The notes beneath the pieces are model-generated. The model was not told the DNA's origin and did not search any database. It worked only from the letters and a program-made list of their open reading frames with translations. A DNA stretch of 64,000 bases, taken from positions 1-64,000 of the forward strand of contig JAFRWN010000020.1 in NCBI GenBank assembly GCA_017437965.1, in the 5' to 3' direction. How positions within the stretch are numbered: the first letter of the stretch is position 1; each line of letters begins with the position of its first letter. The stretch is from Lachnospiraceae bacterium (GTDB lineage: Bacteria > Bacillota > Clostridia > Lachnospirales > Lachnospiraceae). Shown piece by piece: positions 33,826-40,562 of the stretch. The translations under genes were made by a program, and so were the position numbers.

Positions 33826-34923
33826 TCACATTTCCTTGTATACCATGCCTGATATCATCCATGTACCGTCCATCTTGCACATCCAGATGCCCATGTTGAT
33901 ATCATAGTCAAGATATTTTCCGTTGGCAACCGCAAGTATGGTCTGGGTCATGGAAAGATCCATGTAGCACAGTGAATCACCGTAACCGAAGAATTCGTTT
34001 ACGGTTTTGTTTTTATATGTAGGAAGACCTCTGTGCTTGTTATACCAGCCGTTATCGGTCTTCTTTATCAGCTTCAGGTACTCGCTGTTCTTGGGGAAAT
34101 ACTGGACAAGCGGGCTTGTGGTTTCATCTCCGGCGCAGAACAGTGAATAATGTACAAGAAATTCAAATGCCCTTGTGGTCACATCATCCTTGTAGCTGTC
34201 ATCGCTCTTTAAAGGGATCGTATAGGTTTTCCTGCCGTCTTCGTTCTTTTCTTCGGGTGTAACTTTATTTCCGTCACCGTCCTCAAAACTGAGTACAGCG
34301 CCGACGGGCAACTTGTAGACCGATTCTTTAAGCTTCGGAATATCTACGGTAGTCTTTATCTGGGCATACTCCGAATAGTTTTCAAGGAAGGGCTTCAGGG
34401 TATCAAGGCTGCCGTCGTCATAGTCCTTTTCCGAAACTGCGGAAGCCAGTTTATTGTCCGAAAGCAGCTGGTACTGTTCGGGAGCCCTGAGTACTATTTC
34501 CTCCTCCGGTATCGGAGTAGGTGTAGGGGACATGGTCGGATCCGGTTCTTCAGTCGGTACCGGAGTTCCCGTCACAACCTTTACCACCTTGTTTGAGCTG
34601 CTTTCTGCTGCGCTTTTTTTGTTCTCGCTCTTTTCATAGGCTGCAAGTTTGCCCCAGAGAATAACGTCAACTATCAGTATTGCAAAGAGCATGAGCAGGA
34701 TATAGATCAGAAAGCCCAGTTTGAAGCGCATGCTTTTCTTTTTTTGCTTTACGACCAGTCTGGGTCTGCGTCTGGGACCGGATCCCTGCGATGTCATCGT
34801 TCTGGGTCTTGTTCCGGTTCTTTGTACAGGTCTCTGGCCGGGCCTTGATACAGGTCTCTGGCCTGACCTCCCGATTGGTCTCTGACCCGGTCTCTGTCCG
34901 GGTCTTTTGTTGTTTTCGTCCAA
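33826..34923 (-). CDS. Single-pass membrane protein with RPGQ-repeat cytoplasmic tail
   Basis: 365 residues, start TTG at 34923 (MDENNKRPGQ as initiated). Residues 7-45 are basic GQRP/RPGQ repeats, 46-66 Arg/Lys-rich, about 68-92 one membrane helix, about 95-145 a Ser/Thr/Pro linker (TPVPTEEPDPT), then an extracellular domain of about 220 residues with no family I recognise. The same plan (MDEN start, RPQG repeats, helix, TP linker) is found in the DHHW protein at 47167-48555 on the other strand, which also supports the TTG start. Lies between the phosphodiester glycosidase (7 bases) and the exporter permease (33 bases). Confidence 0.75.
   Translation of the reverse strand: MDENNKRPGQRPGQRPIGRSGQRPVSRPGQRPVQRTGTRPRTMTSQGSGPRRRPRLVVKQKKKSMRFKLGFLIYILLMLFAILIVDVILWGKLAAYEKSENKKSAAESSSNKVVKVVTGTPVPTEEPDPTMSPTPTPIPEEEIVLRAPEQYQLLSDNKLASAVSEKDYDDGSLDTLKPFLENYSEYAQIKTTVDIPKLKESVYKLPVGAVLSFEDGDGNKVTPEEKNEDGRKTYTIPLKSDDSYKDDVTTRAFEFLVHYSLFCAGDETTSPLVQYFPKNSEYLKLIKKTDNGWYNKHRGLPTYKNKTVNEFFGYGDSLCYMDLSMTQTILAVANGKYLDYDINMGIWMCKMDGTWMISGMVYKEM
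34788..34905 (-). repeat. RPGQ-coding tandem repeats
   Basis: About nine imperfect 12-base units coding GQRP/RPGQ variants in the N-terminal tail of the 33826-34923 protein. The codons vary between units, so this is an old or selected repeat and not a recent slippage product. Confidence 0.7.
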
Positions 34924-34930
34924 GCCTCTC

Positions 34931-36061
34931 TTACCTCGTTACAATAATGGCAGTCGGCATGTTTCTGTTATTGATCATGTTGGAAGGATTTGAGATTACC
35001 TCTCCTTCATAGTACATGATCGCAGAGCTGCCGCCGTCAAGATTTGCGGCGTTGACTGCGCCGAATTCTTCATATATCTTTATCATGTCTCCGTAGGTCG
35101 CACCGAGCGAGTTAGCCTGTCTTCCGTCAATGGAAAGCAGCAGCACAGCTCCGTCGCCTCTCTGACCTATTGCGGTTCTGGGATTCAAGCCACTGCCGAC
35201 ACCGCTTATCTGGGCTGAAACGCCGTTAACGATAAGTGCGGGACCGAAGGTAATGGCATCCCTGATCTTCTTCTCAAGTGCCTGTTCGGCTGTCATGTTA
35301 CCTACTATCAATATATCATTTTCGTCAAAGCCAATAAGAAGGCCGGACCCTTTAGGGTTATACAGAAGCTGTCCTTCCGAGAAAACATAGCCGATAGGCA
35401 TTGAACCCGAGCCACGTCCGTTATCATCTTCAAAACCGCCGGCGTTGGTTGCGGCAACCGCATTATATGCTTCCATTATCTGGGATACCTGCTGACCACG
35501 TCCGGACCTGATTCCGAACTGCTTGCACACACCTACCTTGACTCTCGAAGGATCCTCGATTATCATCATTCTGCCGGTATAGGTCGGACCTTTTACCTTG
35601 CAGATTTTGATTCCGTCCTTGTCGCTTATCAGGTTGTCCTCGGTCACACCGGGTTCGGAAGCCTCCGGTTCAAGAGTCGGCGTATCATTATCGGGAGTTC
35701 CTGTTTCTGCGGGATTCGGATCAGCCGCCGAACTTTCCTGCGTATTGCCTGCGGGCGTCACATTGGCATCGGGCTTCTTTTCATCTTCCCTGCCTTTGAT
35801 CACTACCATGGATACATCGGTCACATCATCAATCTCTTCGATGGTGTTTTCAGAAAGTATCCGCTCAAGTTCCTCGGGCGTCGTGAACCAGTCCGCGAGA
35901 AAGCCTATCGCACTTGTCTCACGAACGGAGTTTACAAAAAGCTTATGCGCCCTGTCGCTCGGACCGTAATTTATTATCAGAAGCACGGTCATCAGTCCGA
36001 ACAATGCGAAGAGTACGGTTGTCAGTATTACTACTATAATTCTTATAACCAGTTTTTTCAT
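34931..36061 (-). CDS. Membrane-anchored phosphodiester glycosidase (NAGPA family)
   Basis: 376 residues. Membrane helix at about 5-28, an acidic Pro/Thr linker (about 80-145), then the NAGPA/DUF2233 domain: ATNAGGFEDDNG, PIGYVFSEGQL, NPRTAIGQRGDGAVLLLSIDGRQ and AANLDGGSSAIMYY are the family blocks. Members hydrolyse GlcNAc-phosphodiesters or similar bonds in cell-surface glycans. Its start overlaps the stop of the YhaN-like gene (ATGA). Beside a glycopolymer cluster with a predicted phosphonate link, it could trim or remodel that polymer; this is inference. Confidence 0.85.
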   Translation of the reverse strand: MKKLVIRIIVVILTTVLFALFGLMTVLLIINYGPSDRAHKLFVNSVRETSAIGFLADWFTTPEELERILSENTIEEIDDVTDVSMVVIKGREDEKKPDANVTPAGNTQESSAADPNPAETGTPDNDTPTLEPEASEPGVTEDNLISDKDGIKICKVKGPTYTGRMMIIEDPSRVKVGVCKQFGIRSGRGQQVSQIMEAYNAVAATNAGGFEDDNGRGSGSMPIGYVFSEGQLLYNPKGSGLLIGFDENDILIVGNMTAEQALEKKIRDAITFGPALIVNGVSAQISGVGSGLNPRTAIGQRGDGAVLLLSIDGRQANSLGATYGDMIKIYEEFGAVNAANLDGGSSAIMYYEGEVISNPSNMINNRNMPTAIIVTR

Positions 36062-38145
36062 AGTCTTATCAGTTTATATTTAATCTCCATTTCATCAAGA
36101 AGCTTCTCAATCTTGCTTCTTCCGCAGATGATTATCTTCTGCATGTCTCTTTCACAAATTTCCCTGAGTACTCTTGACATTCTGTCATCCTCGAAATGAT
36201 CATACATATCGTAGAACACCAGAGGCATGTCGAAGAATGCGAGTACCATATCACTTGATGCAAGTCTGAGCGAAAGCTTCATCTGTGAGATATCGCCTCT
36301 CTTCTTCTTTACGTCAAGTATGTACTGGTTGAGCTTTTCGGGACTGAGTCCGATTGCCTCGGCCAGCTCGTTTCCTTCCATATCGTCAGTATTGATCTCA
36401 GGATTTTCAGGCTCGGATTTTTCGGCTTCTTTTTCTTCTCCGCTTCCGTTCTCCTTCATTTCCTTATCAAGCTTCTCTATGGTCTTTGCCGCAAGCTCAA
36501 CAGCGGCAATTTCATCTTTGTTACGGTTCTGTCTATCCTCAAGCTCTTTCTTTTCATCATTATGAAGGGTAAGCTTGTCGGTTGTCTTTTCACCCTCGGA
36601 AAGCTCCATGTTGAGTTTTCTGAGTTCATTCTCAAGTCTTGCCTTTTCTTCCCTCAAGGCCATTCTCTTCTCGTTTGCCTTTGCCTTTTCGTCTGCAAGG
36701 CTTTCTTCGAGGAGCTTAAGTTCATCTTCCCTTAAGTTTTCAAGCTTGCCAAAGCGGTTGAATGCCTCAAGGATATCGTTTTTCTTATTGTCAAGCTCCT
36801 TTTCATAGTTTGAAAGCTTTTTGCTGAGTTCTTCTTCCTTCTTTATCACCTCAGCTCTTTCGCTGCTTTCCTTTACGAGCCTGTCATACTGCTGTTTCAG
36901 TTTTTCTTCGTCGCCATGTTCCTTAAGGAAGCTTTCCCTCGTGGCTTCAAGTTCACGGTATCTTTCCTTCTTGCTGTCGATCTTCTTTGTTACACCCGAT
37001 GCGGATTTCTTGGAATGTACAAAGTTGATACCGAAGATTCCTGCAGTTACGGCAGCTCCGATAAAGCAAAGGATTGCAAGTGCCATCGGCGCCTTTGCGG
37101 CAATGACTGCGATTCCCGCAACCAGAAGCACTACAGCAGCGATAAGGAAAATGTACTGCTTCTTTGTCGAGCTCTTGCCCTGGTTTAACAGGCGGCGGTT
37201 CATATTCTGAATATCCTGCCTGCAGCTTTCGCTTTCTTCTATATTCGATTTCTTGAAGTTCTGGATTTCTTCGAGCTTTTTCTTTACTGCGTCAAGTTCC
37301 TCTGCATTTTTGTCAAGCTCTTCGCGTCGTTTTATAGTGGATTCAAGCTCGGCTGAAAGCTTTTCCATCTCGGCAGTTGCCTGTTTGAAGGTTGCGAAAC
37401 TGTCCTTTGCCTCAAGGAAATCCTTTTCATTTCTTTCGAATTCGGTAGGCTTATCGGCTTCGGCGCACTGTCTTTCAACCTCGGCCAGCTTGTCCTGCTC
37501 TTCTTTTATTCTTCTTGCGAGCCTGTCAAGACTCTTTTCTGCTGCTTTTTCCTCACTGATGACTTTCTCAAGATTATTGAGTTTCTCGTCAACGCCGCCT
37601 CTTGCTATCGCTCTCTTTTTGGTTTCAAGCATTCCGATGGCTGCCGATACATTGATATCTGTCCTTTCGGCGCCGGTGCTTTCGGCAAGGCTTCTCGATG
37701 CAGTATTGCTTCTTCCGTAAACCTTCATCAGGTTTTCCTGTATGAGCACGCTGATATTTTCATTTTTGGAGGCTCCGACAAGGAAATCCTTGAAGGTTTT
37801 GTCGGCGTCCGGTATCATATAATCATCGCTGATACAAAAAAGCTCGACCTTTTTATTCTTCTCATGGAAATTTCTGGTCAGTCTGTAAAGCTTTTCTTCA
37901 TGTTCGAAAACTATCGAGCCGCCATAGTCCTCTGCAAGCCTTGCAGGATAATAGGCTGTATAGATATCGTCGCCAAGGCTTACCTTCGGCTTTTCAAGGC
38001 CGATGAACATGGAATAGATAAATGCCGCGATTGTGGACCTTCCGGTCTCGTTGGTGCCGTTGATGACATTTACGTTGTCAACCAGCTCCATCTTGATTCT
38101 GGAGATTTTTCCGAATGAAAAAATCCTGATTTCTCGAATGTTCAT
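36058..38145 (-). CDS. YhaN/SbcC-like coiled-coil ATPase with altered Walker motifs
   Basis: 695 residues from ATG 38145 (MNIREIRIFSFGKI; AGAGGT upstream). SMC/RecF-type layout: N-terminal P-loop region, long coiled coils (about 190-340 and 400-600) and a C-terminal ATPase half. The Walker A reads GTNETGRST (30-38), with Arg36 in place of the conserved Lys (AGG codon, read directly). The C-terminal Walker B reads LVFYDMY, with Tyr645 where the first Asp is expected. Between the coils is a membrane hairpin (two helices, about 330-375) instead of a zinc hook. The partner gene 38150-39247 is four bases upstream. It was probably an Mre11/Rad50-like complex; ATP hydrolysis is doubtful. Confidence 0.8.
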   Translation of the reverse strand: MNIREIRIFSFGKISRIKMELVDNVNVINGTNETGRSTIAAFIYSMFIGLEKPKVSLGDDIYTAYYPARLAEDYGGSIVFEHEEKLYRLTRNFHEKNKKVELFCISDDYMIPDADKTFKDFLVGASKNENISVLIQENLMKVYGRSNTASRSLAESTGAERTDINVSAAIGMLETKKRAIARGGVDEKLNNLEKVISEEKAAEKSLDRLARRIKEEQDKLAEVERQCAEADKPTEFERNEKDFLEAKDSFATFKQATAEMEKLSAELESTIKRREELDKNAEELDAVKKKLEEIQNFKKSNIEESESCRQDIQNMNRRLLNQGKSSTKKQYIFLIAAVVLLVAGIAVIAAKAPMALAILCFIGAAVTAGIFGINFVHSKKSASGVTKKIDSKKERYRELEATRESFLKEHGDEEKLKQQYDRLVKESSERAEVIKKEEELSKKLSNYEKELDNKKNDILEAFNRFGKLENLREDELKLLEESLADEKAKANEKRMALREEKARLENELRKLNMELSEGEKTTDKLTLHNDEKKELEDRQNRNKDEIAAVELAAKTIEKLDKEMKENGSGEEKEAEKSEPENPEINTDDMEGNELAEAIGLSPEKLNQYILDVKKKRGDISQMKLSLRLASSDMVLAFFDMPLVFYDMYDHFEDDRMSRVLREICERDMQKIIICGRSKIEKLLDEMEIKYKLIRL

Positions 38146-38149
38146 ACTT

Positions 38150-39247
38150 CTACCTCTGAATAAAATGTATCGCACCCTCGTTCTCGTCTGACGCGAACAA
38201 AAGCGCCTCAACACCATAATAAAGTGCCCGTTCTTTGATATATTCATCCGCATCGGCTTCCCTGATGCTCTTCATGAATAATCCTATGATATTGTTTTCA
38301 TTCTGCTTTTCAAGCTCACCGAAATCATAGCCAAGTATGGTATTGTCGATCACCTCGGTGATCATTCCCTTCTCGGAAATCTCCGCAAGGTTCGGTCTTT
38401 CCTCACTTCTTCTGACACCCTCAAGATATACTCTGTAAAGGTTTCCGGCACCCTCAGAAAGAATCCTTTTCGTCAGCTTCTGTATCAGCGACTGCCTGTT
38501 GTCATCGGGAGTGATCCTTATGCGTAGATCGATGTACTTTCTTTTTGCTATCGGCACGAACTCGGTCTTTACTGTATATTCTCCGTTTGCCATCAGTATC
38601 TCGCCATGTATATAGCCATGCTCTCCTGTCTCGGTCTTGTCCAGCGGTTCGGGCGAACCCGAATAGAAAATCCTCTCGCCCACTTTTTTGTAGGAATGGC
38701 TGTGTCCGAGTGCCACATAATCAAATCCTGCTTCGGAAAGCCTTTTCACATCTATCGGGATCCCGCTGTCTTCGCCTCCATGTGCGAGAAGTATATGCAG
38801 GCCCGATGACTGCTTCGGATAGGCCTCACGGTAAAGCGGTGTGCTTGTTTCCCTGTCATAAAGCGACAGGCCGTAGATCGTTGTGTCGGTGCCATATATG
38901 TACTTTTCGCTCAGTTCCATGTCGGTAAGCATCAGCACATTGTCGTTCCATCTGAAGTTTGTGTAGCTGGATCTCGGACTGATATAGTCGTTGGTTCCGG
39001 CCATCATCACGACCTTGGTTTTGGTCAGCGTCTTGAAAAGCTCGTTAAGCCTTTTCAGTTCGGAATAGGCAGGCTGTTTGTTGAAAACGTCGCCCGCTAT
39101 CATCAAAAGGTCAATACTATCCCTGTTGCAGTCGGAAATTATCTTTCCGGCTGTTTCCCAGATCTCATTTTTCCTGGCTTCCGCCCAGGGCCTGCCGAGT
39201 TCGGGCGTTGCCCCGAGATGAAGATCCGAACAGTGGATAAATCTCAC
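38150..39247 (-). CDS. SbcD/YhaO-like metallophosphoesterase with altered motif III
   Basis: 365 residues, GTG start at 39247 with GGAGG six bases before. Motif I CSDLHLG, motif II IAGDVF, motif IV ILLAHGG and motif V LGHSH are intact, but motif III, normally GNHD, reads GTND (84-87; GGA ACC AAC GAC), losing the metal-ligand Asn and the catalytic His. The C-terminal region is of the YhaO/SbcD capping type. It pairs with the YhaN-like ATPase gene four bases downstream, which also lacks key residues, so the pair may have a structural or regulatory role. One base separates it from the GH13 gene upstream. Confidence 0.82.
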   Translation of the reverse strand: MRFIHCSDLHLGATPELGRPWAEARKNEIWETAGKIISDCNRDSIDLLMIAGDVFNKQPAYSELKRLNELFKTLTKTKVVMMAGTNDYISPRSSYTNFRWNDNVLMLTDMELSEKYIYGTDTTIYGLSLYDRETSTPLYREAYPKQSSGLHILLAHGGEDSGIPIDVKRLSEAGFDYVALGHSHSYKKVGERIFYSGSPEPLDKTETGEHGYIHGEILMANGEYTVKTEFVPIAKRKYIDLRIRITPDDNRQSLIQKLTKRILSEGAGNLYRVYLEGVRRSEERPNLAEISEKGMITEVIDNTILGYDFGELEKQNENNIIGLFMKSIREADADEYIKERALYYGVEALLFASDENEGAIHFIQR

Positions 39248-39248
39248 G

Positions 39249-40562
39249 TCATGCCTCCGCTTTGATGTAGCTTACCGAATATGGAGGAAGATAAAGCTTT
39301 CCTCCGGAAAGATCGACTTTTTCGTTGCTAAGAAGGTCAAGTCCCGATGCACATCCGGTGTTGAAATATGCATCATAGGGCTTGTCGTCCATGTTGAATG
39401 CCGCAAAAACCCTTTCGCCGTCACATCTTCTTTCAAGCACACACTGCTTGTTAGTTAGGACCGGAGCACCGAAATCGCCATAGATCAGTGCCTTGCTTTC
39501 CCTGTGGGCCTTTGCATATTCCGCAATTTTCTCCGTCAGCTCGTTCCACTCCGGTTTTTCGAAGCAGGGACGAAGTGCGGGATCGCCCTGGGATTTATGG
39601 GCCTTTGTGCCCCATTCGCTACCGTAGTAGATGCAGGGAATACCGGGCATTGCAAAGAGCAGGCCGTAGATAAGCGGCAGATGTGCGGGATTCTCAAGTA
39701 TGCTTGCGACCCTCGTCACATCATGGTTATCGACAAAGCACAGAAGGTGCTTGCCTTTATAGAGTGTCCACTGCTCCGGACCGAACTGCCTTTTGAGCGA
39801 ATGGACGATTTCAAACATATTGTAGGAATTGAAGCTTGAATACAGACCCTTGTAGCATTCGTAGTTCGTGCAGGAATGAAGCATTCCGTCATTTACGAAC
39901 TGGTTGTAATCACCATGCAGAAGCTCTCCTATCAGGGCAAATTCAGGCTTGATATTATTTGCAAGCTCCCTTAATCTGTGAAGGAAGTCACGGTCAAGGC
40001 AGTATGCCACGTCAAGCCTCAGTCCGTCGATGTCGAACTCATCCACCCAGTAGTGGATAGCGTCAAATATATGCTGTACTACCGCTTCGTTTCTGAGATT
40101 CAGTTTTACAAGGTCATAGTTGCCTTCCCAGCCCTCATACCACAGACCGTCGTTGTAGTTTGAGTTTCCGTCAAAGCTTATGTTGAACCAGTCTTTATAG
40201 GGGCTGTCCCATCTCTTTTCCACTACATCGCGGAAGGCGGGAAAACCGCGTCCGACATGGTTGAAAACACCGTCGAGCACTACCCTTATGCCTTTTTTAT
40301 GAAGCTTTTTTACAAGCTCCTTGAAGTCCTCGTTGGTTCCGAGTCTCTTGTCGATCAGCTTGTAATCCCTTGTGTTATAGCCATGTGTGTCGGATTCGAA
40401 CACCGGTGAAAAATAAACCGCGTTTACGCCAAGTTTTGCAAGATGACCTCTCCAGTCTGCAAATTCTTTTATGTTTCTTCTGCATATGCCGTCATTTTCG
40501 AAGCTGGCGTTGCAAAATCCCATAGGATAAATCTGATAAAATACACTTTCTTCAAGCCACAT
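39249..40562 (-). CDS. GH13 alpha-amylase-family glycoside hydrolase, cytoplasmic
   Basis: 437 residues, no signal peptide. GH13 regions: DGVFNHVG (I), GLRLDVA (II, nucleophile Asp), LIGELLHGD (III, acid/base Glu), FVDNHDVTR (IV). The short length and YQIYPMGFCNA start resemble intracellular maltodextrin-degrading enzymes (cyclomaltodextrinase or alpha-glucosidase subgroups). A glycogen phosphorylase is encoded in the same window, so it may serve glycogen or maltodextrin turnover. The RBS is weak (AAGGAA about 13 bases away). Confidence 0.85.
   Translation of the reverse strand: MWLEESVFYQIYPMGFCNASFENDGICRRNIKEFADWRGHLAKLGVNAVYFSPVFESDTHGYNTRDYKLIDKRLGTNEDFKELVKKLHKKGIRVVLDGVFNHVGRGFPAFRDVVEKRWDSPYKDWFNISFDGNSNYNDGLWYEGWEGNYDLVKLNLRNEAVVQHIFDAIHYWVDEFDIDGLRLDVAYCLDRDFLHRLRELANNIKPEFALIGELLHGDYNQFVNDGMLHSCTNYECYKGLYSSFNSYNMFEIVHSLKRQFGPEQWTLYKGKHLLCFVDNHDVTRVASILENPAHLPLIYGLLFAMPGIPCIYYGSEWGTKAHKSQGDPALRPCFEKPEWNELTEKIAEYAKAHRESKALIYGDFGAPVLTNKQCVLERRCDGERVFAAFNMDDKPYDAYFNTGCASGLDLLSNEKVDLSGGKLYLPPYSVSYIKAEA

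Follow-up and report, generated by a model that had tools for sequence, protein, structure and literature searches.

A degenerate Mre11-Rad50-like gene pair under strong constraint in Lachnospiraceae

The analysed window (64,000 nt of contig JAFRWN010000020.1 from a Lachnospiraceae bacterium) carries a Mre11/SbcD-fold phosphoesterase gene followed by a Rad50/YhaN-like ATPase gene. Catalytic motifs are lost in both, while the reading frames and their coupling are intact and dN/dS is lowest in the degenerate ATPase heads. We consider it reasonably probable that the pair encodes a SbcEF/YhaON-like complex tethered to the membrane, with a lasting role that is non-catalytic: scaffolding or ligand binding. 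The two products are termed psi-PE and psi-ATPase in the following, and the features of the locus are:

34931..36061, minus strand: NAGPA-domain (phosphodiester glycosidase) membrane protein, downstream; start overlaps the psi-ATPase stop (Pfam)
36058..38145, minus strand: psi-ATPase, a degenerate Rad50/YhaN-like ATPase of 695 aa, whose stop codon shares ATGA with the start of the next gene
36208..36225, minus strand: psi-ATPase Walker B PLVFY645D, first Asp645 replaced by Tyr, second acid kept (alignment of 93 ATPases)
36280..36312, minus strand: former ABC signature LSxGT, now VKKKRGDISQM (psi-ATPase alignment)
37027..37152, minus strand: hydrophobic hairpin of two helices at mid-coil of psi-ATPase, residues 332-373 (sequence, compared with relatives)
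38032..38058, minus strand: psi-ATPase Walker A GTNETGR36ST, Lys36 replaced by Arg (alignment of 93 ATPases)
38150..39247, minus strand: psi-PE, a degenerate phosphoesterase of Mre11/SbcD fold, 365 aa from a GTG start (ORF list, Pfam, AF2)
38987..38998, minus strand: psi-PE motif III G-T85-N86-D, canonical GNHD (alignment of 139 phosphoesterases)
39249..40562, minus strand: alpha-amylase-family gene, upstream of psi-PE; neighbour in five of five genus members (Pfam)

Motif losses within preserved folds

Both open frames and the motifs GTND, GTNETGRST and LVFYD were found as originally predicted. psi-PE is matched by Pfam Metallophos (E 2.9e-12), and its AF2 model (pLDDT 94.6) displays the Mre11 fold with phosphoesterase core and capping region. 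Each of the 39 best VIA matches of this model in the PDB is a Mre11/SbcD protein, with Z between 21 and 26; no other phosphoesterase exceeds 18.5. With the SbcD model TIGR00619, psi-PE scores 58.2 bits and falls below the cut-off of 77.65, as does the intact relative L039 (64.4). Mre11/SbcD proteins are recognised by motif III GNH(D/E), which in psi-PE reads GTND: the metal-ligand Asn is replaced by T85 and the catalytic His by N86. The damage is confined to this motif, as D8, H10, D53, D87, H156, H182 and H184 are kept. Seven of nine scored active-site positions thus remain, for which reason a one-metal or residual activity of psi-PE is possible.

For psi-ATPase the start at ATG 38145 is preferred over 38253, because all relatives begin ~29 residues ahead of Walker A; the longest frame has 36 additional N-terminal residues that show no conservation. 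In the structure comparison Rad50 heads rank first (Z 18-19). The AF2 model comprises a bipartite ABC head with coiled-coil insertion, in which the lobe-II beta segment preceding the signature is absent or disordered. None of the three Rad50/SbcC motifs, Walker A GxxxxGK(S/T), signature LSxG(T) and Walker B hhhhD(D/E), is found in psi-ATPase, and alignment with relatives revealed no canonical ATPase motifs at shifted positions, an outcome that had been named as refuting the original prediction. The loss of the ABC signature, with KKRGD standing where LSxGT is expected, had escaped that prediction. Among the 93 aligned ATPases, Arg in Walker A and Tyr in Walker B occur exclusively, and identically, in the window and its nearest relative, L033, which is more than expected by chance. 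Pfam AAA_27 matches the intact relatives P0005 and L039, not psi-ATPase. Judging from the residues left, the Walker A Arg together with the second Walker B acid could permit nucleotide binding.

In Rad50 a zinc hook sits at the coil apex. The CXXC of this hook is absent from the coil apex of psi-ATPase, where the hydrophobic hairpin 332-373 is located instead. One or two hydrophobic segments are present at mid-coil in every full-length ATPase relative checked, and the mid-coil hairpin is the standard architecture of the family, replacing the zinc hook. The predicted membrane insertion is therefore real as a hairpin but not peculiar to this pair, and its special acquisition by the window species is rejected. 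Of the 397 Lachnospiraceae genomes sampled, 193 contain relatives of the phosphoesterase, and the ATPase gene follows the phosphoesterase gene in most loci examined. The window pair has the arrangement of a YhaN/YhaO (SbcEF)-like membrane pair, with adjacent phosphoesterase and ATPase genes and a mid-coil hydrophobic hairpin. The C-terminal helical segment of Mre11 carries the Rad50-binding part; among the degenerate members examined, nearly all have preserved this segment of the phosphoesterase.

Locus, order of losses and selection

Both genes are read from the minus strand, one after the other, within a tightly packed run of amylase, phosphoesterase, ATPase and NAGPA-domain gene. Frames and operon are intact, as had been claimed: the genes are translationally coupled, and the locus is syntenic in five species of the genus as far as contigs reach, with the amylase 83-90% identical. 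The NAGPA-domain neighbour is also kept in UBA3775 (G002) and, after a gap, in G001. The assembly of the window species (94.6% complete) holds no other SbcD-like match and no intact ATPase of the same family, and no canonical ATPase or SbcCD was found elsewhere in this genome. Its best other AAA_27/SbcC-like match is a DndD-like ATPase, named by eye (L237:134-3730, G000:C146), which adjoins an IS110-type transposase; this locus possibly belongs to an island for DNA modification or defence. Membership of the pair itself in a defence system was rejected, PADLOC giving just weak generic P-loop and coiled-coil matches.

Within the genus, the metal-binding Asn of motif III is lost in all five phosphoesterases, three of which show further His losses, and three of five ATPases are fully canonical. 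Hence the losses were sequential, and the earlier view that both halves changed together does not hold. Alignment with homologues shows that damage is genus-wide at motif III but not at the Walker motifs. Both halves are degenerate in just the window species and UBA3775, the sole genome that a contig scan returned; the doubly degenerate form is known from these two species only. In a tree from which the motif columns were excluded, the psi-ATPases form a single clade (support 100/98).

An orphan degenerate ATPase gene with no adjacent phosphoesterase was observed at L119:6027-7502 (G003:C3), running on into L120:1-189, next to glycosyltransferase and sugar-biosynthesis genes; as G003 is rated 7% contaminated, this orphan is provisional. 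It groups with the window ATPase (100/98, again without motif columns) and shares the KxKRGxISQM signature replacement. The Walker motifs differ between the two degenerate branches: GTNETGRST/LVFYD in the window versus HVDDEDSKA/FFDD in the orphan, whose Walker A is destroyed and Walker B kept. The signature was accordingly lost before Walker A and B. The order of losses is nuclease, then signature, then Walker A and B separately in each branch. A single nuclease loss in the ancestor of the genus is the most parsimonious reading; the residues replacing the motif III Asn vary among the five species (T, I, I, S, A), a pattern that repeated later change and separate losses fit equally well.

Selection was assessed by dN/dS between the window and UBA3775 (Nei-Gojobori counts); at dS ~1 the comparison is near saturation, and the ordering of the values outweighs their exact size. 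The N-lobe of psi-ATPase gave 0.006 (bootstrap 0-0.018), the C-lobe 0.039, the coil 0.06 and psi-PE 0.097. The flanking genes gave 0.06, 0.07, 0.09 and 0.20, and the N-lobe value is lower than that of all flanking genes and of all control pairs with measurable dS. The fastest evolving of the neighbours tested (0.20) is a downstream proline- and arginine-rich membrane protein without clear Pfam family (33826-34923). In 11 control pairs the ATPase is either the less conserved partner or roughly on a par with its phosphoesterase, as it is in intact pairs of similar divergence, whereas between the window and UBA3775 it is the more conserved partner (88% vs 84%). The distance of the psi-ATPase head is 0.015 changes per site to the sister species as opposed to >2 to the intact ATPases of genus-mates. 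These distances indicate rapid change and then a standstill, as expected when a new function arises and not when a gene decays. An overlapping antisense gene is an unlikely cause of the constraint, since the N-lobe dS of 0.94 equals that of the neighbours.

Recurrent losses and candidate functions

Across the family, one or more catalytic or metal residues are missing from 18 of 139 phosphoesterases. On the tree of these 139 at least 12 independent losses were counted, 8 of them with at least two residues; Asn to Ser (7 changes) and His156 to Tyr (6 changes) recur, both being one-step transitions. The partner ATPase is intact in most lineages with a dead phosphoesterase (L034-L036, L070, L199, L201, L231). 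The phosphoesterases of L070, L199, L201, L229 and L231 died independently, and the L229 ATPase has a changed signature (LGDAT). ATPase damage was seen only alongside a dead phosphoesterase, in the window clade, in G044 and in genus g141; the ATPases L037, L179 and L208, whose frames are split, probably by assembly error or truncation, were left out of the losses.

The independent G044 pair (L064, G044:C84) is degenerate in both halves. Its phosphoesterase reads GSHD/YG/GNLH, and its ATPase has Walker A GEKDAGKT, a lost signature (KDDADE) and a kept Walker B; the genome also carries a canonical pair (L090). In genus g141 (L207 and L217, from G440 and G149) a phosphoesterase with dead motifs is fused in frame to a hairpin-bearing coil, with no ATPase head. 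The two fusions are 78% identical, with dN/dS of 0.11 for the phosphoesterase part and 0.22 for the fused coil, and G440 additionally keeps a normal SbcCD pair. The simplest account of these patterns is that many lineages can do without the nuclease and a few without the ATPase cycle, the membrane-tethered complex being retained as scaffold or ligand binder.

Loss of catalytic motifs in both genes might point to a decaying, functionless relic operon. This is highly improbable, as dN/dS stays far under 1, with its minimum in the degenerate heads, and as frames, coupling and synteny are intact across two species at dS ~1; pseudogene drift is ruled out by the dN/dS values. The near identity of the psi-ATPases, whose heads match at 97-99% of amino acids between the window and UBA3775, could also mean that a single copy recently passed from one species to the other. 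However, psi-ATPase dS (0.94-1.3) is no lower than that of the flanking genes (0.94-1.05), by which recent transfer is ruled out, leaving this explanation with next to no probability. Low dN/dS, coupling, synteny and fixation in two species favour the non-catalytic part of the originally proposed role; the membrane part is plausible, though the hairpin, being common to the family, does not speak for this pair in particular.

A different explanation is that the proteins are still catalytic with altered chemistry, psi-PE through a remodelled metal site and psi-ATPase by binding or slowly hydrolysing nucleotide despite Arg36 and Tyr645. The other metal ligands and the predicted fold are intact, and the extreme conservation of N-lobe residues is what an active site would show. 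Against this, the signature Ser/Thr motif and the lobe-II strand are lost too, the catalytic His is gone along with the metal Asn, and sister lineages have lost still more residues, one of them both heads; we therefore regard altered chemistry as unlikely. Regulatory pseudo-subunits that join an intact paralogous pair in a hetero-assembly and tune it are more doubtful still. G002, G003 and G004 do possess a second canonical pair, and G003 has an intact ATPase besides its orphan degenerate one, but the lack of another SbcD-like match or intact family ATPase in the window assembly, at 94.6% completeness, argues against a pure regulator-of-paralog role.

We thus return to the non-catalytic, membrane-tethered complex. 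The pair would be one of a widespread, Lachnospiraceae-type family of Mre11-Rad50-like complexes tethered to the membrane, with SbcEF/YhaON-like layout, in which a phosphoesterase dimer sits on two ABC heads and the coil tip forms a transmembrane hairpin. The nuclease chemistry of the phosphoesterase would have been lost first, in the genus. The ATPase would have followed at a later point, on the branch of the window species and UBA3775: a phase of rapid change would have cost it part of lobe II and the function of Walker A, signature and Walker B, after which it would have frozen, the pair being kept as a pseudoenzyme scaffold. Docking of psi-PE may still rely on the conserved helical segment at its C-terminus, and the psi-ATPase head may serve as a folded binding surface. 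Assembled and inserted in this way, an inactive pair could hold DNA, a nucleotide or an envelope partner as ligand at the membrane, with no ATP-driven cutting.

Mre11-Rad50 is usually understood in terms of ATP-driven DNA cutting. The at least 12 losses of nuclease residues, the loss of the ATPase in a few lineages and the strong constraint imply that part of the family's job is structural. As a wider and more tentative proposal, for which the balance of our judgement is slightly unfavourable, membrane-tethered Mre11-Rad50-like complexes may have a core function independent of nuclease and ATPase, exposed by repeated pseudoenzyme conversion, with the degenerate head remade as a binding module. 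The degenerate lineages represent natural separation-of-function variants for finding the structural job of Mre11-Rad50-like complexes.

Comparison with known systems

A literature search found no paper on a catalytically dead Mre11-Rad50 pair. YhaN, like psi-ATPase, has central hydrophobic segments, and Bacillus subtilis YhaO/YhaN (SbcF/SbcE) is probably the closest studied system. Both pairs consist of an adjacent Mre11-like phosphoesterase and SMC/Rad50-like ATPase, a likeness by description. Published accounts describe YhaO/YhaN as a SOS-induced double-strand-break repair pair (PMC3896406, PMC4205851, PMC12748557). The window differs in having no perfect Bacillus-type LexA box (GAACNNNNGTTC type), whereby one consensus only was searched and its absence is weak evidence. 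Moreover, psi-ATPase has lost all three ATPase signatures.

With SbcCD and Mre11-Rad50 the window pair shares both subunit folds, the D-then-C gene order and a coil between two half-heads. It differs by a transmembrane hairpin in place of the zinc hook, a shorter coil (695 aa) and the lost catalytic residues. The headless g141 fusion resembles it in combining dead phosphoesterase motifs with a membrane coiled coil in two species, but has no ATPase heads and joins the coil to the phosphoesterase. The genus and family relatives with intact ATPase, such as L034, L039 and L141, share a syntenic or homologous pair, the hairpin and the C-terminal motif of the phosphoesterase; in contrast to the window pair their ATPase motifs are intact, and GNHD and GHxH are mostly kept outside the genus.
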